Below are positions 13,304 to 40,980 of a DNA stretch of 42,461 bases, piece by piece; positions within the stretch are counted from its first letter, which is position 1; the number at the start of each line of letters is the position of its first letter. The stretch spans positions 1 to 42,461 of the forward strand of contig JAAYHR010000045.1 in assembly GCA_012735275.1 (NCBI GenBank). The letters run 5' to 3'. The notes under the pieces were generated by a model. The model worked only from the letters and a program-made list of their open reading frames with translations. It did not search any database and was not told the DNA's origin. The translations under genes and the position numbers were made by a program. Source of the stretch: Erysipelothrix sp. Lineage in GTDB: Bacteria; Bacillota_I; Bacilli_A; Erysipelotrichales; Erysipelotrichaceae.

Positions 13304-14294
13304 ACTAAAATTTGAAGCTTACCTACGCAGTGAGTTAAGTATCTTACAAAATGATGAAATCGATGAAATCGTATCTGAGTACTTACAACATATTGATATG
13401 AAAGTCTTAGAAGGGGTTAGTGAAGAAGAAGCAATTGCTGACTTTGGAGACTTAAATGATTTGGTTGATGATTTACTATCAGCTTATAAAATTGATGCGC
13501 GTGATCGAACATTTAGTAATTTTGAAACAAAAAGTAAATCAATCTTAAACACAATCTTAAACTTTATTAACTCGATTGTTAGTCAGTTAATGAAACTATC
13601 AGCCAGCCAGATTATTGGTCTTATTATTGAATTTACGATTGTCTTATTATTACTTACAATCTTTTCATCAATTACCTCAAGTTTCTTATCATCAATTGGT
13701 CGTATGTTCTACTTTAGACCATACTTTATAACTTCGATAATTAGATTCATTATTTCAATTGTTGATGTTATTATCTCGCTATCAATTGCTTTTATTGTTT
13801 TATACTGGTTTGCTCAAGAGCGTATCTTAGGTAAACATGATAGTTTTGATAATCAAAAGGAAGAAAAAAAAGAAACTTTTAAACCAGCAGCTGAGACTAA
13901 AAGACCTGCAAGCGCAGAGTCAAGATCATCTAGTAAAGAAGAAAGTTTTGCTTTTAAACAAGAGAATGAAACAAGTCGCGCATATAAATCAGTCACAGAT
14001 AAAATAATTAATGAATCACCAAAGCGCAAACGTGGCATTGATCGCTCATTATTTACAGTAATTACTTATATCTTTAAAGCTTGTCTGTTACTAGTATTAA
14101 TTCCAGCAATTGTTATTAATGTACTTTCTACAATTGCTTATGTATATTTAGTATTCGCAACATTTTCAGGTTATGGCTCAGTTGGTTTAGTACTAATTGG
14201 AGCTGGATTCTTATTAATGTTATTCTCATTTAACGTATTTTTAATCAAACTAGTAGGAGGAAAAAAAGATGAAGAAGTTCATAATAATATTTAG
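13296..14294 (+). CDS. DUF1700/HAAS-domain membrane protein
   Basis: A 332-residue protein starting at GTG 13296. AAAGGAGG (13279-13286) is 9 nt from this GTG but only 3 nt from the upstream TTG at 13290. Residues ~1-70 form the HAAS/DUF1700 helical domain (MNKLKFEAYL start, then IDEIVSEYLQHIDMKVLEG and EEAIADFGDLNDLVDDLL). Four hydrophobic segments follow, two before and two after a charged, flexible cytoplasmic linker of about 80 residues rich in K, E and S. HAAS proteins usually pair with PadR regulators and act as membrane-bound partners. The gene overlaps padR and the downstream secreted-protein gene by 26 nt. Confidence 0.8.
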   Translation: MNKLKFEAYLRSELSILQNDEIDEIVSEYLQHIDMKVLEGVSEEEAIADFGDLNDLVDDLLSAYKIDARDRTFSNFETKSKSILNTILNFINSIVSQLMKLSASQIIGLIIEFTIVLLLLTIFSSITSSFLSSIGRMFYFRPYFITSIIRFIISIVDVIISLSIAFIVLYWFAQERILGKHDSFDNQKEEKKETFKPAAETKRPASAESRSSSKEESFAFKQENETSRAYKSVTDKIINESPKRKRGIDRSLFTVITYIFKACLLLVLIPAIVINVLSTIAYVYLVFATFSGYGSVGLVLIGAGFLLMLFSFNVFLIKLVGGKKDEEVHNNI

Positions 14295-25863: not shown

Positions 25864-25877
25864 GTAGGAGGAAAATA

Positions 25878-27835: not shown

Positions 27836-28099
27836 GTTAAAGACAGTGATTGGAAAAGTAAATTAATAAAAGTTTCTAAGAGAGTCTATGATTGGTGAAA
27901 ATAGATAAACAAAAATTAATTGAAAATGGCCCATGAGTTGCATACCGAAATTAAGTAGGCTATGCCGGTTGTACCCGTTAAACTACTAGAGTATAACTTT
28001 AATTTATTAAATCGTACTTGAAGAGGTGAATATAATGTTCATAAACTTAGGTGGTACCACGATAACTTCGTCCTATATGTATAGGATGGAGTTTTTTTT
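27836..28099 (+). promoter_or_regulatory. T-box leader with an AUG (Met) specifier
   Basis: A tRNA-sensing transcription attenuator. Recognisable elements in order are AAGAGAG in the Stem I base, the apical GGTGAAA, a specifier region TTGAAAATGG in which ATG is 27926-27928, the ACCCGTTA block near 27974, and the T-box AGGTGGTACCACG (28049-28061). A terminator follows, TCCTATA (28071-28077) / TATAGGA and a run of T. Uncharged tRNA-Met should stabilise the antiterminator. An AUG specifier agrees with the downstream methionine transporter genes. This leader fills the 391-nt gap before metN. Confidence 0.92.
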
Positions 28100-28117: not shown

Positions 28118-29122
28118 ATGTACAAACTCACAGGGGTGTCTAAACAATTTGTAAGTCAGGATCGAATCGTAAAGGCGGTAAGAGATGTTGATTTACATAT
28201 AGAAAAGAACGAAATATTTGGAATCATTGGATCAAGTGGAGCTGGGAAATCAACTTTAGTAAGATGTTTAAACTTACTTGAAAAACCTGATCAGGGACAA
28301 GTAGAGTATAAAGGCGTCGATCTAATGCAATTAAGTAAAAAAGACTTAAATGAAGAACGTAAGAATATTGGAATGATCTTTCAAAACTTTAACCTCTTCT
28401 CCTCACGAACTGTATTTGAAAACATTGCCTTCCCACTCAAAGGAAAGAGCAAAGACTTCATTAAGAATCGTGTAATGGAACTATTAAGTCTAGTTGATTT
28501 AAGTGATAAGGTAAATGCTTATCCAAGTCAATTATCCGGAGGACAAAAACAGCGAGTTGCAATAGCTAGGGCCCTAGCTAATGAACCCGATGTACTACTC
28601 TGTGATGAAGCGACAAGCGCACTTGATCCCCAGTCAACCAATTCAATCTTAGATTTATTAAAAGATTTGAATAAGCAAATGAACTTAACAATTATCCTAA
28701 TAACTCATGAAATGGATGTAATTAAACGTATTTGTGATCGAGTAGCGATCATGTCAGATGGTTACATTATTGAAATGGGCAGTGTAGTTGATGTCTTCGT
28801 TAATCCCAAAAAAGAAGCGAGTAAAGAGTTTACCCTTCAAACTTATGGCTTTAATGAAGTTAGAAAGTTACTTAAAAAACTTAACTATTCAGGTAAAAAT
28901 TTAGAATTAGTATATGGTGATAATTCTGCCAGTCAAGCCTTAATCTCAGTGATTAGTCAAAAGTTCAATGTTGAAATAAACATTATCTCAGGCTACATTG
29001 AAGTAATTAGTGATCAAACAATCGGAAGATTAGTCGTAAACATCGATGGTGAAGCAGATGCTATTGAAGCAGCTATCAACCATTTAAAAATTGAAGGGGT
29101 GATAGTAAATGATTTTATTTAA
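28118..29122 (+). CDS. metN: Methionine ABC transporter ATP-binding protein
   Basis: A 334-residue ATPase of the methionine importer. The Walker A is GSSGAGKSTL, the signature LSGGQKQR, the Walker B VLLCDEATSALDP and the H-loop ILITHEMDV. The C-terminal ~75 residues form the NIL/ACT-like regulatory domain that binds methionine for trans-inhibition. The ribosome site AGGAGGTG lies just after the T-box terminator. It overlaps metI by 14 nt. Confidence 0.96.
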   Translation: MYKLTGVSKQFVSQDRIVKAVRDVDLHIEKNEIFGIIGSSGAGKSTLVRCLNLLEKPDQGQVEYKGVDLMQLSKKDLNEERKNIGMIFQNFNLFSSRTVFENIAFPLKGKSKDFIKNRVMELLSLVDLSDKVNAYPSQLSGGQKQRVAIARALANEPDVLLCDEATSALDPQSTNSILDLLKDLNKQMNLTIILITHEMDVIKRICDRVAIMSDGYIIEMGSVVDVFVNPKKEASKEFTLQTYGFNEVRKLLKKLNYSGKNLELVYGDNSASQALISVISQKFNVEINIISGYIEVISDQTIGRLVVNIDGEADAIEAAINHLKIEGVIVNDFI

Positions 29123-36775: not shown

Positions 36776-37581
36776 TGAAAGCAAGAAAACATATAATCTC
36801 AAAAATATGGATTGGAATTACCTTACTTTTCTTATACATTCCAATTATTACAATGATGATTTTCTCATTCAATGAGAAAAGATCACTAAGCGTCTGGGGC
36901 GGCTTTTCATTAAAATGGTATGCCAAACTATTCGCTGGCCGTCAAATGATGGAAGCTGTCGCAAATACACTAGTTATCGCAGTTATCGCAACAATCGTCT
37001 CAGTTATCATTGGTGTTATTACAGCAATTGGACTATCAAAATCACGTAAGATTATTCGTGCGATCGTCCTAAACATTTCTGATCTACCAATGCTTAATCC
37101 AGAGATCGTTACCGCGATTGGACTAATGTTACTCTTTACAGCAATTGGGCTTCCAAAAGGCTTTGTGACTGTTCTCTTAGCTCATATTATCTTCTGTATT
37201 CCTTATGTAATACTATCGATCTTACCAAAAATTAGATCACTAGATGAAAACTTAGTTGAAGCAGCGATGGACCTTGGAGCAACACCATTTCAAGCCTTAA
37301 TAAAAGTAATCCTACCACAGTTAAAACCAAGTATAATTGCGGGGGCACTAATTGCCTTTACCATGTCATTTGATGATTATATTATCTCTTACTTTGTCAC
37401 AGGTAATGGTTTTAAAAACGTCTCAATTTTAGTTTCAACAATGGGTAGAAGAACTAATCCATCTGTTAATGCACTGTCGACACTTTTTGTCCTCGTTATT
37501 TTCTTAGGTTTAGTTTTATACAATATAGCAATGCTAATCTCGAAAAAGAAAGGAGTAAATAAATATGCGAAAAATTCTTAG
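36775..37581 (+). CDS. potC: Spermidine/putrescine ABC transporter permease PotC
   Basis: A 268-residue permease with six helices. The EAA loop is EAAMDLGATPFQALIKVILPQ, and SFDDYIISYFVTG is a PotC/PotI-type signature. It overlaps potB by one base and potD by 17 nt. Confidence 0.95.
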   Translation: MKARKHIISKIWIGITLLFLYIPIITMMIFSFNEKRSLSVWGGFSLKWYAKLFAGRQMMEAVANTLVIAVIATIVSVIIGVITAIGLSKSRKIIRAIVLNISDLPMLNPEIVTAIGLMLLFTAIGLPKGFVTVLLAHIIFCIPYVILSILPKIRSLDENLVEAAMDLGATPFQALIKVILPQLKPSIIAGALIAFTMSFDDYIISYFVTGNGFKNVSILVSTMGRRTNPSVNALSTLFVLVIFLGLVLYNIAMLISKKKGVNKYAKNS

Positions 37582-38614
37582 TTTATTTATTATTTTAATC
37601 CTTCTAACAGGCTGTCTTAATGGTGGTCAAACTGATAAGAAAGTCCTGCGTGTCTTTATGCCATCTGAGTACATTGATGAGAATACAATCTACGAGTTTG
37701 AAGATGCCTTCAATGTTCGTGTTATTACAGAAGAGTTTGAATCAAATGAGCAAATGTATACTAAGTTAATGGCAGGAAACTCATATGATATTCTAATTCC
37801 TTCAGACTACATGATTGATCGTTTAATCGAAGAAGATTACTTACAAAAAATTGATTCTTCAATGATTCAAAACTTAGAGTATGTTAAAAGTGATTTAAGA
37901 AATTCAGACTATGATCCTAACAATGAATACTCGGTTCCATACTTCTTTGGGTCAGTCGGAATTGTCTATGATAAAATGCGTGTAAGTGAGAGTCAATTAG
38001 AGGATGAAGGTTGGTCAATCTTTAAGAATAAGGATTATGTTAATGATATCTACTTCTATGATTCAGAACGCGATGCCTTTATGATTGCTCTTAAAGCATT
38101 AGGTTTCTCAATGAATACTGACAATCTTGATGAGATTGATCAAGCTTATAACTGGTTAAGTGACTTCTCAGAAACAATGGATCCAGTCTTTGTCTTAGAT
38201 ACTGTAATTGAATCAATGCTCGATGCTAATAAAGCGATGGCAGTTATGTACTCCGGTGACGCTGCATATATTATGAGTGAGAATGAAGACTTAGGTTTCT
38301 TTATGCCAAATGAAGGGACTAATATCTGGGTTGATGCCATGGTTATTCCAAAAGATGCGCGTGAGATTGAATTAGCTCATGAATGGATGAACTTTATGCT
38401 TGACTATGATATTGCTATGATGAACTCTGAAGAGGTAGGTTATTCTTCACCAGTATCAGATGTCTATGATGAACTAGCTGGCGAAGATGGTTTATTCTAT
38501 GAGAATGTCGCTTATACACCACGCCTTGATGGTGAGAATGATGAAACATTTAGTCATAATGAAGCGCTAAGACAAGCAATCTCAAACCTATGGATAAAAG
38601 TAAAAGCTAAATAA
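37565..38614 (+). CDS. potD: Polyamine-binding lipoprotein PotD
   Basis: A 349-residue substrate-binding protein. The lipobox LLTGC puts the lipidated Cys at residue 17. The mature protein follows the PotD/PotF pattern: LRVFMPSEYIDENTI, YDILIPSDYMIDRLI, VPYFFGSVGIVYD, and VMYSGDAAYIMSENEDLGFFMP, with the hinge and acidic polyamine-binding residues. It delivers spermidine or putrescine to PotBC. It ends the operon. Confidence 0.95.
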   Translation: MRKILSLFIILILLTGCLNGGQTDKKVLRVFMPSEYIDENTIYEFEDAFNVRVITEEFESNEQMYTKLMAGNSYDILIPSDYMIDRLIEEDYLQKIDSSMIQNLEYVKSDLRNSDYDPNNEYSVPYFFGSVGIVYDKMRVSESQLEDEGWSIFKNKDYVNDIYFYDSERDAFMIALKALGFSMNTDNLDEIDQAYNWLSDFSETMDPVFVLDTVIESMLDANKAMAVMYSGDAAYIMSENEDLGFFMPNEGTNIWVDAMVIPKDAREIELAHEWMNFMLDYDIAMMNSEEVGYSSPVSDVYDELAGEDGLFYENVAYTPRLDGENDETFSHNEALRQAISNLWIKVKAK

Positions 38615-38620
38615 AAAACA

Positions 38621-38645
38621 ATCCAGTCCTAAGTGACTGGATTTA
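38621..38645 (+). terminator. Hairpin after potD, weak terminator
   Basis: ATCCAGTC (38621-38628) pairs with GACTGGAT (38635-38642), but only a short T tail follows (TTTAC). Some readthrough into the next transcript is possible. Confidence 0.65.
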
Positions 38646-38646
38646 C

Positions 38647-38675
38647 TTGACAAACTATTGAAAGCGCTTTATACT
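38647..38675 (+). promoter_or_regulatory. Near-consensus promoter with an embedded cre-like box
   Basis: TTGACA (38647-38652), a 17-nt spacer and TATACT (38670-38675). The spacer contains TGAAAGCGCTTTAT (38659-38672), which closely matches the CcpA catabolite-response element. CcpA bound here would block polymerase. No protein gene follows on this strand for 800 bp. Confidence 0.8.
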
Positions 38676-38681
38676 ATGTAT

Positions 38682-38778
38682 ATACTCCAATAAAAAATGT
38701 GTCTCATATTATTGTCAGTTAACTCCTACGTTCACATTTTTTAGAGAAAAAAGATACGATCATTCGTATCTTTTTCTT
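38682..38778 (+). ncRNA. Candidate small RNA with anti-Shine-Dalgarno loop
   Basis: Between the promoter (38647-38675) and an intrinsic terminator (38747-38778) lies a transcript of about 97 nt with no convincing gene. A 10-bp perfect stem pairs AAAAAATGTG (38692-38701) with CACATTTTTT (38733-38742). Its 31-nt loop includes AACTCCTAC (38721-38729), complementary to Shine-Dalgarno sequences such as GTAGGAG. The terminator hairpin pairs AAAAAGATACGA with TCGTATCTTTTT. A 15-codon ORF inside it lacks a ribosome site. The layout resembles trans-acting sRNAs of Gram-positives that block ribosome sites. This is inferred from sequence only. Confidence 0.55.
38747..38778. terminator. Bidirectional terminator, sRNA candidate and YkgJ-like gene
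   Basis: AAAAAGATACGA (38748-38759) pairs with TCGTATCTTTTT (38764-38775); A and T tracts flank it on either side. Confidence 0.9.
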
Positions 38779-38783
38779 TGGTG

Positions 38784-39407
38784 TTAATCAATAACTAAAT
38801 CATTTAATTTAGAGAAAACATAAGATCTAAATTCAGGTTTCAAAAACTGACTATAATAGTACCAGAGCGGATAAGCTGTTGGTTTAACATTAGCTTGATC
38901 TAACATTCTTGTATTCTCATATAATGGATAAAGGTGATAGTTAGTAAAATCATCCTCTTGATAATCATTATTTTGAATATACTCACAAGTAACAGTTGTT
39001 CCGTACTTCCGACAAGTATTAGGTCGATACTTATAGATGGAACAGCGACCATTAGTTAGAAAGATACAGGCCGGAAGTTTTGGATAATTAATGTATTCTC
39101 CTTCAGAAAAATCAACGACCTGATTAGCCAGTAAGAAAGGGGCTTTAAATGATAAACGATCGAGTTCATTATTTAAATACTTTTTAAAGTAGGCTTCGGT
39201 TTTAAGCGACTTATTGTAAAAGTAGTCTAAATTATAAGGCATCTCACTTAGGGCTTGTAAGCTCATAAAGAACTCAGGTAGTGAAGCATAAAAATAGTCG
39301 TAACAGCAATCACTACAACCGTTTAAACACTTAACTAAATATCCGTGCTTAGCTAAGAAACTATCAACATATTCTATGTTTATTTTCATTTTATTTATTG
39401 TTTTCAT
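38784..39407 (-). CDS. YkgJ-like cysteine-cluster protein
   Basis: A protein of about 207 residues with the zinc/iron-chelating cysteine pattern of the YkgJ (UPF0153) family. An N-terminal CLNGCSDCCYDYF is followed by ACIFLTNGRCSIYKYRPNTCRKYGT. The function is unknown; metal or Fe-S binding is assumed from the family. The frame is open up to ATG 39491, but an extended -10, TGTTATAAT (plus-strand 39414-39422), lies inside that stretch. The start is therefore ATG 39407 (leaderless, 6 nt after the -10) or ATG 39389 (short leader). Neither has a clear ribosome site. Confidence 0.75.
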   Translation of the reverse strand: MKTINKMKINIEYVDSFLAKHGYLVKCLNGCSDCCYDYFYASLPEFFMSLQALSEMPYNLDYFYNKSLKTEAYFKKYLNNELDRLSFKAPFLLANQVVDFSEGEYINYPKLPACIFLTNGRCSIYKYRPNTCRKYGTTVTCEYIQNNDYQEDDFTNYHLYPLYENTRMLDQANVKPTAYPLWYYYSQFLKPEFRSYVFSKLNDLVID

Positions 39408-39413
39408 ATATGA

Positions 39414-39422
39414 ATTATAACA
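39414..39422 (-). promoter_or_regulatory. Extended -10 of the YkgJ-like gene
   Basis: On the minus strand TGTTATAAT lies 6 nt before ATG 39407, pointing to leaderless or very short-leader translation. Confidence 0.5.
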
Positions 39423-39491
39423 TAAATGTATTAGACAATAGTATGTTGATGGAGTAAAATAGTAACTAGACGTAAATCGGAAAGGAATCAA

Positions 39492-40682: not shown

Positions 40683-40768
40683 TGGTAGGGATAGAGGGAC
40701 TTGAACCCTCACGAACAAAGTTCATTGGATTTTGAGTCCAATGCGTCTACCAGTTCCGCCATATCCCC
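40683..40768 (-). tRNA. tRNA-Leu(CAA)
   Basis: A long-variable-arm tRNA. The anticodon loop CTCAAAA gives anticodon CAA, reading UUG. The T arm GAGGGTTCAAGTCCCTC and an encoded CCA are present. The first acceptor pair is G-U rather than G-C. Confidence 0.95.
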
Positions 40769-40776
40769 ATTTTGGT

Positions 40777-40797
40777 AAAAAAAAACCTTTTCAGGTT
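40777..40797 (-). terminator. Terminator-like hairpin between the two tRNA-Leu genes
   Basis: On the minus strand AACCT-GAAA-AGGTT is followed by a long T run, between tRNA-Leu(UAA) and tRNA-Leu(CAA). It may act as a partial terminator or processing signal. Confidence 0.6.
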
Positions 40798-40808
40798 GAT
40801 TAAATAAA

Positions 40809-40895
40809 TGGTGGGGTCGGGGGGACTTGAACCCCCACGAGCTTACACTCATTGGATTTTAAGTCCAATGCGTCTACCGATTCCGCCACGACCCC
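40809..40895 (-). tRNA. tRNA-Leu(UAA)
   Basis: The anticodon loop CTTAAAA gives anticodon UAA, reading UUA, the main leucine codon in this window. The acceptor GGGGTCG/CGACCCC, a long variable arm and an encoded CCA are seen. Confidence 0.95.
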
Positions 40896-40905
40896 ATATA
40901 TTTTT

Positions 40906-40980
40906 TGGAGGTTCCTGTCGGATTTGAACCGACGGTCACAGAGTTGCAGTCTGTTGCCTTACCAGCTTGGCTAAGGAACC
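40906..40980 (-). tRNA. tRNA-Cys(GCA)
   Basis: The acceptor GGTTCCT/AGGAACC, anticodon loop CTGCAAC (anticodon GCA), T arm GTCGGTTCAAATCCGAC and encoded CCA give a complete cloverleaf. It is first in the minus-strand tRNA transcript. Confidence 0.95.

Follow-up and report, generated by a model that had tools for sequence, protein, structure and literature searches.

A predicted stand-alone small RNA with a cre-like operator and two anti-Shine-Dalgarno segments in Erysipelothrix

The locus and the anatomy of the predicted RNA

The window (the whole stretch of DNA analysed, 42,461 nucleotides of an Erysipelothrix sp.) is contig C24 of the source genome G000, which comprises 1.07 Mb in 63 contigs. 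The region of interest lies between a potD-like spermidine/putrescine-binding protein gene (37565..38614, plus strand, identified by Pfam SBP_bac_8 and related models), which is the upstream neighbour, and a convergent YkgJ-like gene (38784..39491, minus strand, Pfam CxxCxxCC). The terminator scan places a hairpin directly after potD (AATCCAGTC-CTAAGT-GACTGGATT, 38620..38643, on no particular strand); its T-rich tail is found on the minus strand only, so this hairpin may stop antisense transcription rather than the potD mRNA.

A promoter of the form TTGACA-17-TATACT is found at 38647..38675 on the plus strand, with the -35 box at 38647-38652, a 17-bp spacer and the -10 box at 38670-38675, based on direct reading, a promoter scan and alignment with G002, a relative of the same genus. 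It agrees with the consensus at 11 of 12 positions, and the G002 version is TTGACA-17-TATAAT, with the -35 box unchanged. An alternative promoter (TTGAAA-17-TATACT, 38658-38686) is less likely; it would remove the 5' anti-Shine-Dalgarno (anti-SD) segment described below, and its -10 box reads CATACT in G002. The right part of the main promoter's spacer is filled by a cre-like operator, TGAAAGCGCTTTAT (38659..38672, no strand), which reaches 3 nt into the -10 box, contains the perfect inner palindrome AAAGCGCTTT and departs from the strict 14-nt cre consensus TGWAANCGNTTWCA at two positions, both on one side. The original prediction had placed a cre-like block in the spacer of this same promoter, and direct reading bears this out.

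Assuming a start 7 nt past the -10 box, the transcript would be a small RNA (sRNA) of about 97 nt (38682..38778, plus strand), present as a single copy in the G000 genome. The 97-nt sequence folds with -22.4 kcal/mol (z -5.9), a stability that 0 of 200 shuffled sequences equalled, and the corresponding G002 RNA folds with a z of -6.0. At its 5' end, the block AUACUCCAAUAAAAAAUGUGU (38682..38702, plus strand) carries an anti-SD segment, ACUCC (38684-38688), whose CUCC is predicted to be unpaired with a probability of 0.85-1.0. An A/U-rich stem is formed by a 5' arm, AAAAAATGTG (38692..38701, plus strand, pair probabilities of 0.97-1.0), and a 3' arm, CACATTTTTT (38733..38742, plus strand, from the fold and pair probabilities), and is extended by one further A-U pair. 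The 31-nt loop between them (38702-38732) displays AACUCCUAC, with AACTCCTAC at 38721-38729 and an unpaired probability of 0.81-0.97 for its CUCCU; the loop anti-SD and most of the 3' arm belong to a second block, UUAACUCCUACGUUCACAUUUUU (38719..38741, plus strand). The agreement of ACTCCTACG with the core of a 16S rRNA primer site was regarded as a coincidence. The unit ends at an intrinsic terminator with a 12-pair stem (38748..38775, no strand), which has a T tail on the plus strand and a T-rich tail on the minus strand as well, and is therefore probably common to the sRNA and the convergent ykgJ-like gene. The 10-bp stem with its 31-nt loop, and the unit of about 97 nt closed by a strong terminator, are thus found just as originally described, to which the present analysis adds the 5' anti-SD segment, AUACUCCAAUA, and better candidate targets.

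Considering the G000 and G002 RNAs together, the CUCC segments are unpaired with probabilities of 0.81-1.0 and neither molecule contains a GG anywhere, so that the RNA should bind G-rich partners, foremost Shine-Dalgarno (SD) sites.

Conservation, distribution and independence from the neighbouring genes

The comparison involved two other genus members: G002 (Erysipelothrix sp. isolate AS09scLD_16, a metagenome-assembled genome, with the sRNA on contig JAAZDN010000013.1) and G001, which is 66% complete. Neutral sites between G000 and G002 are close to saturation, with 42% identity at fourfold-degenerate codon positions (3963/9431), versus 84% over the approximately 100 nt of the element. The operator, the 21-nt block AUACUCCAAUAAAAAAUGUGU and the 23-nt block UUAACUCCUACGUUCACAUUUUU are conserved letter for letter, while the spacer to the left of the operator differs. 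Promoter spacers normally drift freely, and the identity of 14-15 palindromic spacer nucleotides in G002 speaks for an operator here. The loop differs in its middle as well (including a 2-nt indel), and the terminator has a quite different sequence with the same structure; it is the only part in which structure is preserved through sequence change, the stem being invariant across the two available sequences. As judged from this alignment, the changes lie at places where they should do a functional RNA little harm, that is, in the left spacer, the loop middle and the terminator. As a side observation, a three-tRNA cluster on the minus strand of the window (40686-40980), in which two of the tRNAs have long variable arms, has G002 counterparts that are about 92-93% identical.

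Gene order also bears on the nature of the element. In G002 it is preceded by a GNAT-type ORF (identified by reading) and potD lies elsewhere; the potD orthologues of the genus are 68-74% identical, and in neither G001 nor G002 is the gene followed by the sRNA. The YkgJ-like gene, in turn, adjoins the sRNA in both carrier genomes (65% identical in G002, 51% in G001), and in G001 potD and the YkgJ-like gene are about 70 nt apart, with no sRNA between them. What marks a trans-acting, terminator-ended sRNA was found here, namely its own promoter and an intrinsic terminator, with no conserved ORF. A conserved element with a different upstream gene, and whose sole reading frame is cut in G002, points to an independent non-coding gene, and we consider it a predicted stand-alone sRNA gene.

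Three readings that would deny this can be weighed on the same comparison. That the RNA is a piece of the potD mRNA 3' UTR, or an element antisense to the ykgJ-like gene, is improbable: some read-through from potD is conceivable, given the poor plus-strand T tail of the hairpin after it, and the ykgJ-like gene is indeed a constant neighbour, but the element keeps its own promoter next to a GNAT-type gene in G002 (a gene order on which the 3' UTR version was rejected), and the terminator towards the ykgJ-like gene looks bidirectional, so that the two transcripts would barely overlap. That promoter, palindrome and hairpins have come together by chance and serve no function is very improbable; promoter-like matches are frequent in this AT-rich DNA (21 found versus 17 expected in the promoter scan), but the conservation of whole blocks against near-saturated neutral sites strongly contradicts it. 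Finally, a tiny peptide gene starting at an ATG within the stem and encoding MCLILLSVNSYVHIF is hardly credible, since the 15-codon frame, although it spans the stem-loop, has no ribosome site before its ATG and ends after 7 codons in G002 (MCISIIN), where there is also the 2-nt indel, in line with the earlier statement that the region holds no convincing gene.

The distribution of the element, as far as the available sequences tell, is narrow. DNA searches, pattern searches allowing 3 mismatches and a covariance model all led to G000 and G002 only, and no convincing further homologue was found among the 273 family genomes covered by the covariance model (including G001 and 270 others). Weak covariance-model matches in G067 and G289 (E 0.1-0.4) were discarded, both genomes being without the element, and pattern matches elsewhere look like chance, as reversed-pattern controls gave similar or higher numbers. 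An exact-core scan returned only the G002 contig among the named genomes and nothing among viral contigs. It had been stated in advance that a loop and stem poorly kept in relatives would speak against the RNA, with a covariance search as the check: the RNA withstands this test in one of the two same-genus relatives, G002, while G001 and more distant genomes yielded no homologue.

Predicted control and candidate targets

In the mechanism we propose, a CcpA-like LacI-family repressor, together with HPr-Ser-P produced by HPr kinase, would occupy the cre-like palindrome. In known CcpA systems, a cre site between the -35 and -10 boxes is repressing, and the RNA is accordingly expected in the absence of the preferred sugar: the promoter would be shut while that sugar is present and, once it runs low, the strong sigma-70-type promoter and the intrinsic terminator of the gene would yield a trans-acting RNA of about 97 nt. 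Its two unpaired segments, AUACUCCAAUA at the 5' end and UUAACUCCUACGUU in the loop, would then pair with SD regions and block ribosome binding. We give this overall reading, a stand-alone, CcpA-repressed sRNA which blocks ribosome binding on a few mRNAs through two anti-SD segments, a probability of roughly 0.55.

Putative components of such a control are encoded in the genome. The CcpA-like protein of G000 (G000:C14:8778-9776) scores 259 bits against the ccpA model, whose curated cut-off is 442; among proteins of solved structure, its best matches are CcpA throughout (209 bits, the next LacI-family protein other than CcpA reaching 97 bits), and an alignment gives it a CcpA-like DNA-binding domain. 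HPr kinase is found above its curated cut-off in both G000 and G002, and within the sampled stretches other cre-like sites precede PTS, amylase and solute-binding genes (the proteins having been identified by reading).

Regarding targets, the ranking covered the leaders of 391 G000 genes and 328 G002 genes (about 409 kb and 357 kb of DNA, respectively, in stretches partly picked for pattern matches). Any sequence with a CUCC will match a large number of ribosome sites. The GTAGGAG matches first pointed out, in the ftsZ ribosome site (25864-25870) and within TAGTAGGAGG (14251-14260), do exist, but 7 of the 391 sampled genes have this motif in their ribosome sites, and it is not special; with ranks 14 and 13 of 391, ftsZ and the gene at 14269 are unremarkable and were given up as targets. 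The proposed layout of a carbon-responsive, SD-blocking sRNA thus keeps its stand-alone gene and conserved cre-type operator and loses these two targets.

The best present candidates would be a DUF349-domain gene and gapA. The DUF349 leader gives the rank 1 duplex in both genomes (391 and 328 genes), whose contigs were in the sample because of the match; the pairing, AACGUAGGAGU, comprises 11 bp including the SD and lies at the apparent very 5' end of the mRNA. Flank-shuffled anti-SD sequences reached its joint score in 49 of 1000 cases by energy and in 20 of 1000 by z, and we regard this pairing as suggestive only. G001, in which the sRNA was not detected, has retained the DUF349 leader, GCGTAGGAGTGATTT, as well, which means that the sRNA is not the sole cause of the leader's conservation. 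The G000 copy of the gene (G000:C47:25367-26695, L180) contains one in-frame TAA, which is either a nonsense change or an assembly error, the G002 and G001 orthologues being full-length. The gapA leader (gene identified by its N-terminal sequence) can pair over 11-12 bp in both species through AGGAGUUAAUU, and as a predicted target it fits a sugar-controlled regulator, but it ranks only 13th and 12th by core energy among the sampled genes of the two genomes.

The T-box-like leaders that precede alaS and a valS-like gene (L172 on G000:C47; L155 and L141 in G002) share TTTTTTTATTGGAGG at the junction between terminator and ribosome site; in both species it offers 13 nt complementary to the 5' segment of the sRNA. 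For the best pair, 27 of 600 shuffles were as good, although six bases of the 13-nt pairing are A's tied up in the stem of the sRNA. A more ambitious version, in which the 5' arm (CUCCAAUAAAAAA) acts on the alaS/valS-like T-box synthetase junction (TTTTTTATTGGAG) and the loop on gapA and DUF349, so that a lineage-specific, catabolite-controlled RNA couples sugar supply to glycolysis and tRNA charging, is a speculation with a small chance of being right. The window itself contains another T-box leader (27837-28078; Rfam, 128 bits); a U tract and TTAGGAGG come after it, ahead of the gene at 28118.

The main rival for the control of the RNA is a local sugar regulator, a different repressor of the LacI family, that would make the same sRNA respond to a specific sugar instead of general catabolite control. 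Palindromes of the AAAGCGCTTT type are general LacI-family operators, the candidate cre site is off consensus at two positions, and there are further LacI-family matches (three in G000 and four in G002). Against this, the protein nearest to CcpA carries a CcpA-like DNA-binding domain, HPr kinase is present, and the sRNA has no LacI-family gene beside it, either in the window or in the G002 contig as far as this was read, so we hold this alternative to be rather unlikely. It is quite unlikely that the RNA acts mainly on another small RNA, as a sponge or as a partner. There are precedents in RosA (acting on RoxS in Bacillus subtilis) and RsaI, two CcpA-controlled stand-alone RNAs that act on sRNAs (PMC8216469), but these use G-rich segments on C-rich partners, and the present RNA, with C-rich segments and no GG, could only take the role of the RNA that is sponged; no partner sRNA was found.

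Comparison with known small RNAs

No sRNA of the Erysipelotrichaceae was found described in the literature searched, and the element matches no Rfam sRNA family at the cut-off; with E values up to 10, Rfam gives chance-level matches only, RsaI/RsaOG not being among them. SR1 of Bacillus subtilis is a sugar-repressed sRNA linked to gapA biology, encoding the peptide SR1P, which binds the GapA protein; in contrast, no ORF is conserved in the present RNA, and its link to gapA is limited to the predicted targeting of the mRNA.

Also in Bacillus subtilis, RosA (S345) is a stand-alone, CcpA-repressed RNA that sponges RoxS and FsrA via G-rich segments (PMC8216469). The stand-alone nature and CcpA repression (predicted here) are the likeness, whereas G-rich sponge segments are not present in our RNA. 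RsaI (RsaOG) of Staphylococcus aureus, which CcpA represses when glucose is in excess and which pairs with the SDs of the glcU_2 and fn3K mRNAs (PMC9266662), resembles it in being a stand-alone intergenic sRNA for which CcpA repression and SD pairing are predicted here; it differs in belonging to a different clade and in its G-rich segments, which bind C-rich sRNAs (PMC8216469). The streptococcal csRNAs, which are controlled by CiaR, are small, mostly two-hairpin, intergenic RNAs with an unpaired anti-SD and their own promoter and terminator (PMC3091779). The unpaired anti-SD sequence is shared, but lies between hairpins in csRNAs and, in the present RNA, within the loop and 5' tail; additionally, csRNA promoters contain the CiaR repeat TTTAAG-N5-TTTAAG, which does not occur in 38640-38676, where the cre-like site is found instead, and the present sRNA is single copy. 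We treat RsaI and the csRNAs as analogues, and not as established homologues, of this RNA.

If our reading is correct, this is a small and testable regulator, whose operator and pairing segments are explicit, and catabolite-controlled, ribosome-site-blocking sRNAs would also exist in the Erysipelotrichaceae, with an origin probably independent of RsaI, RosA and the csRNAs.
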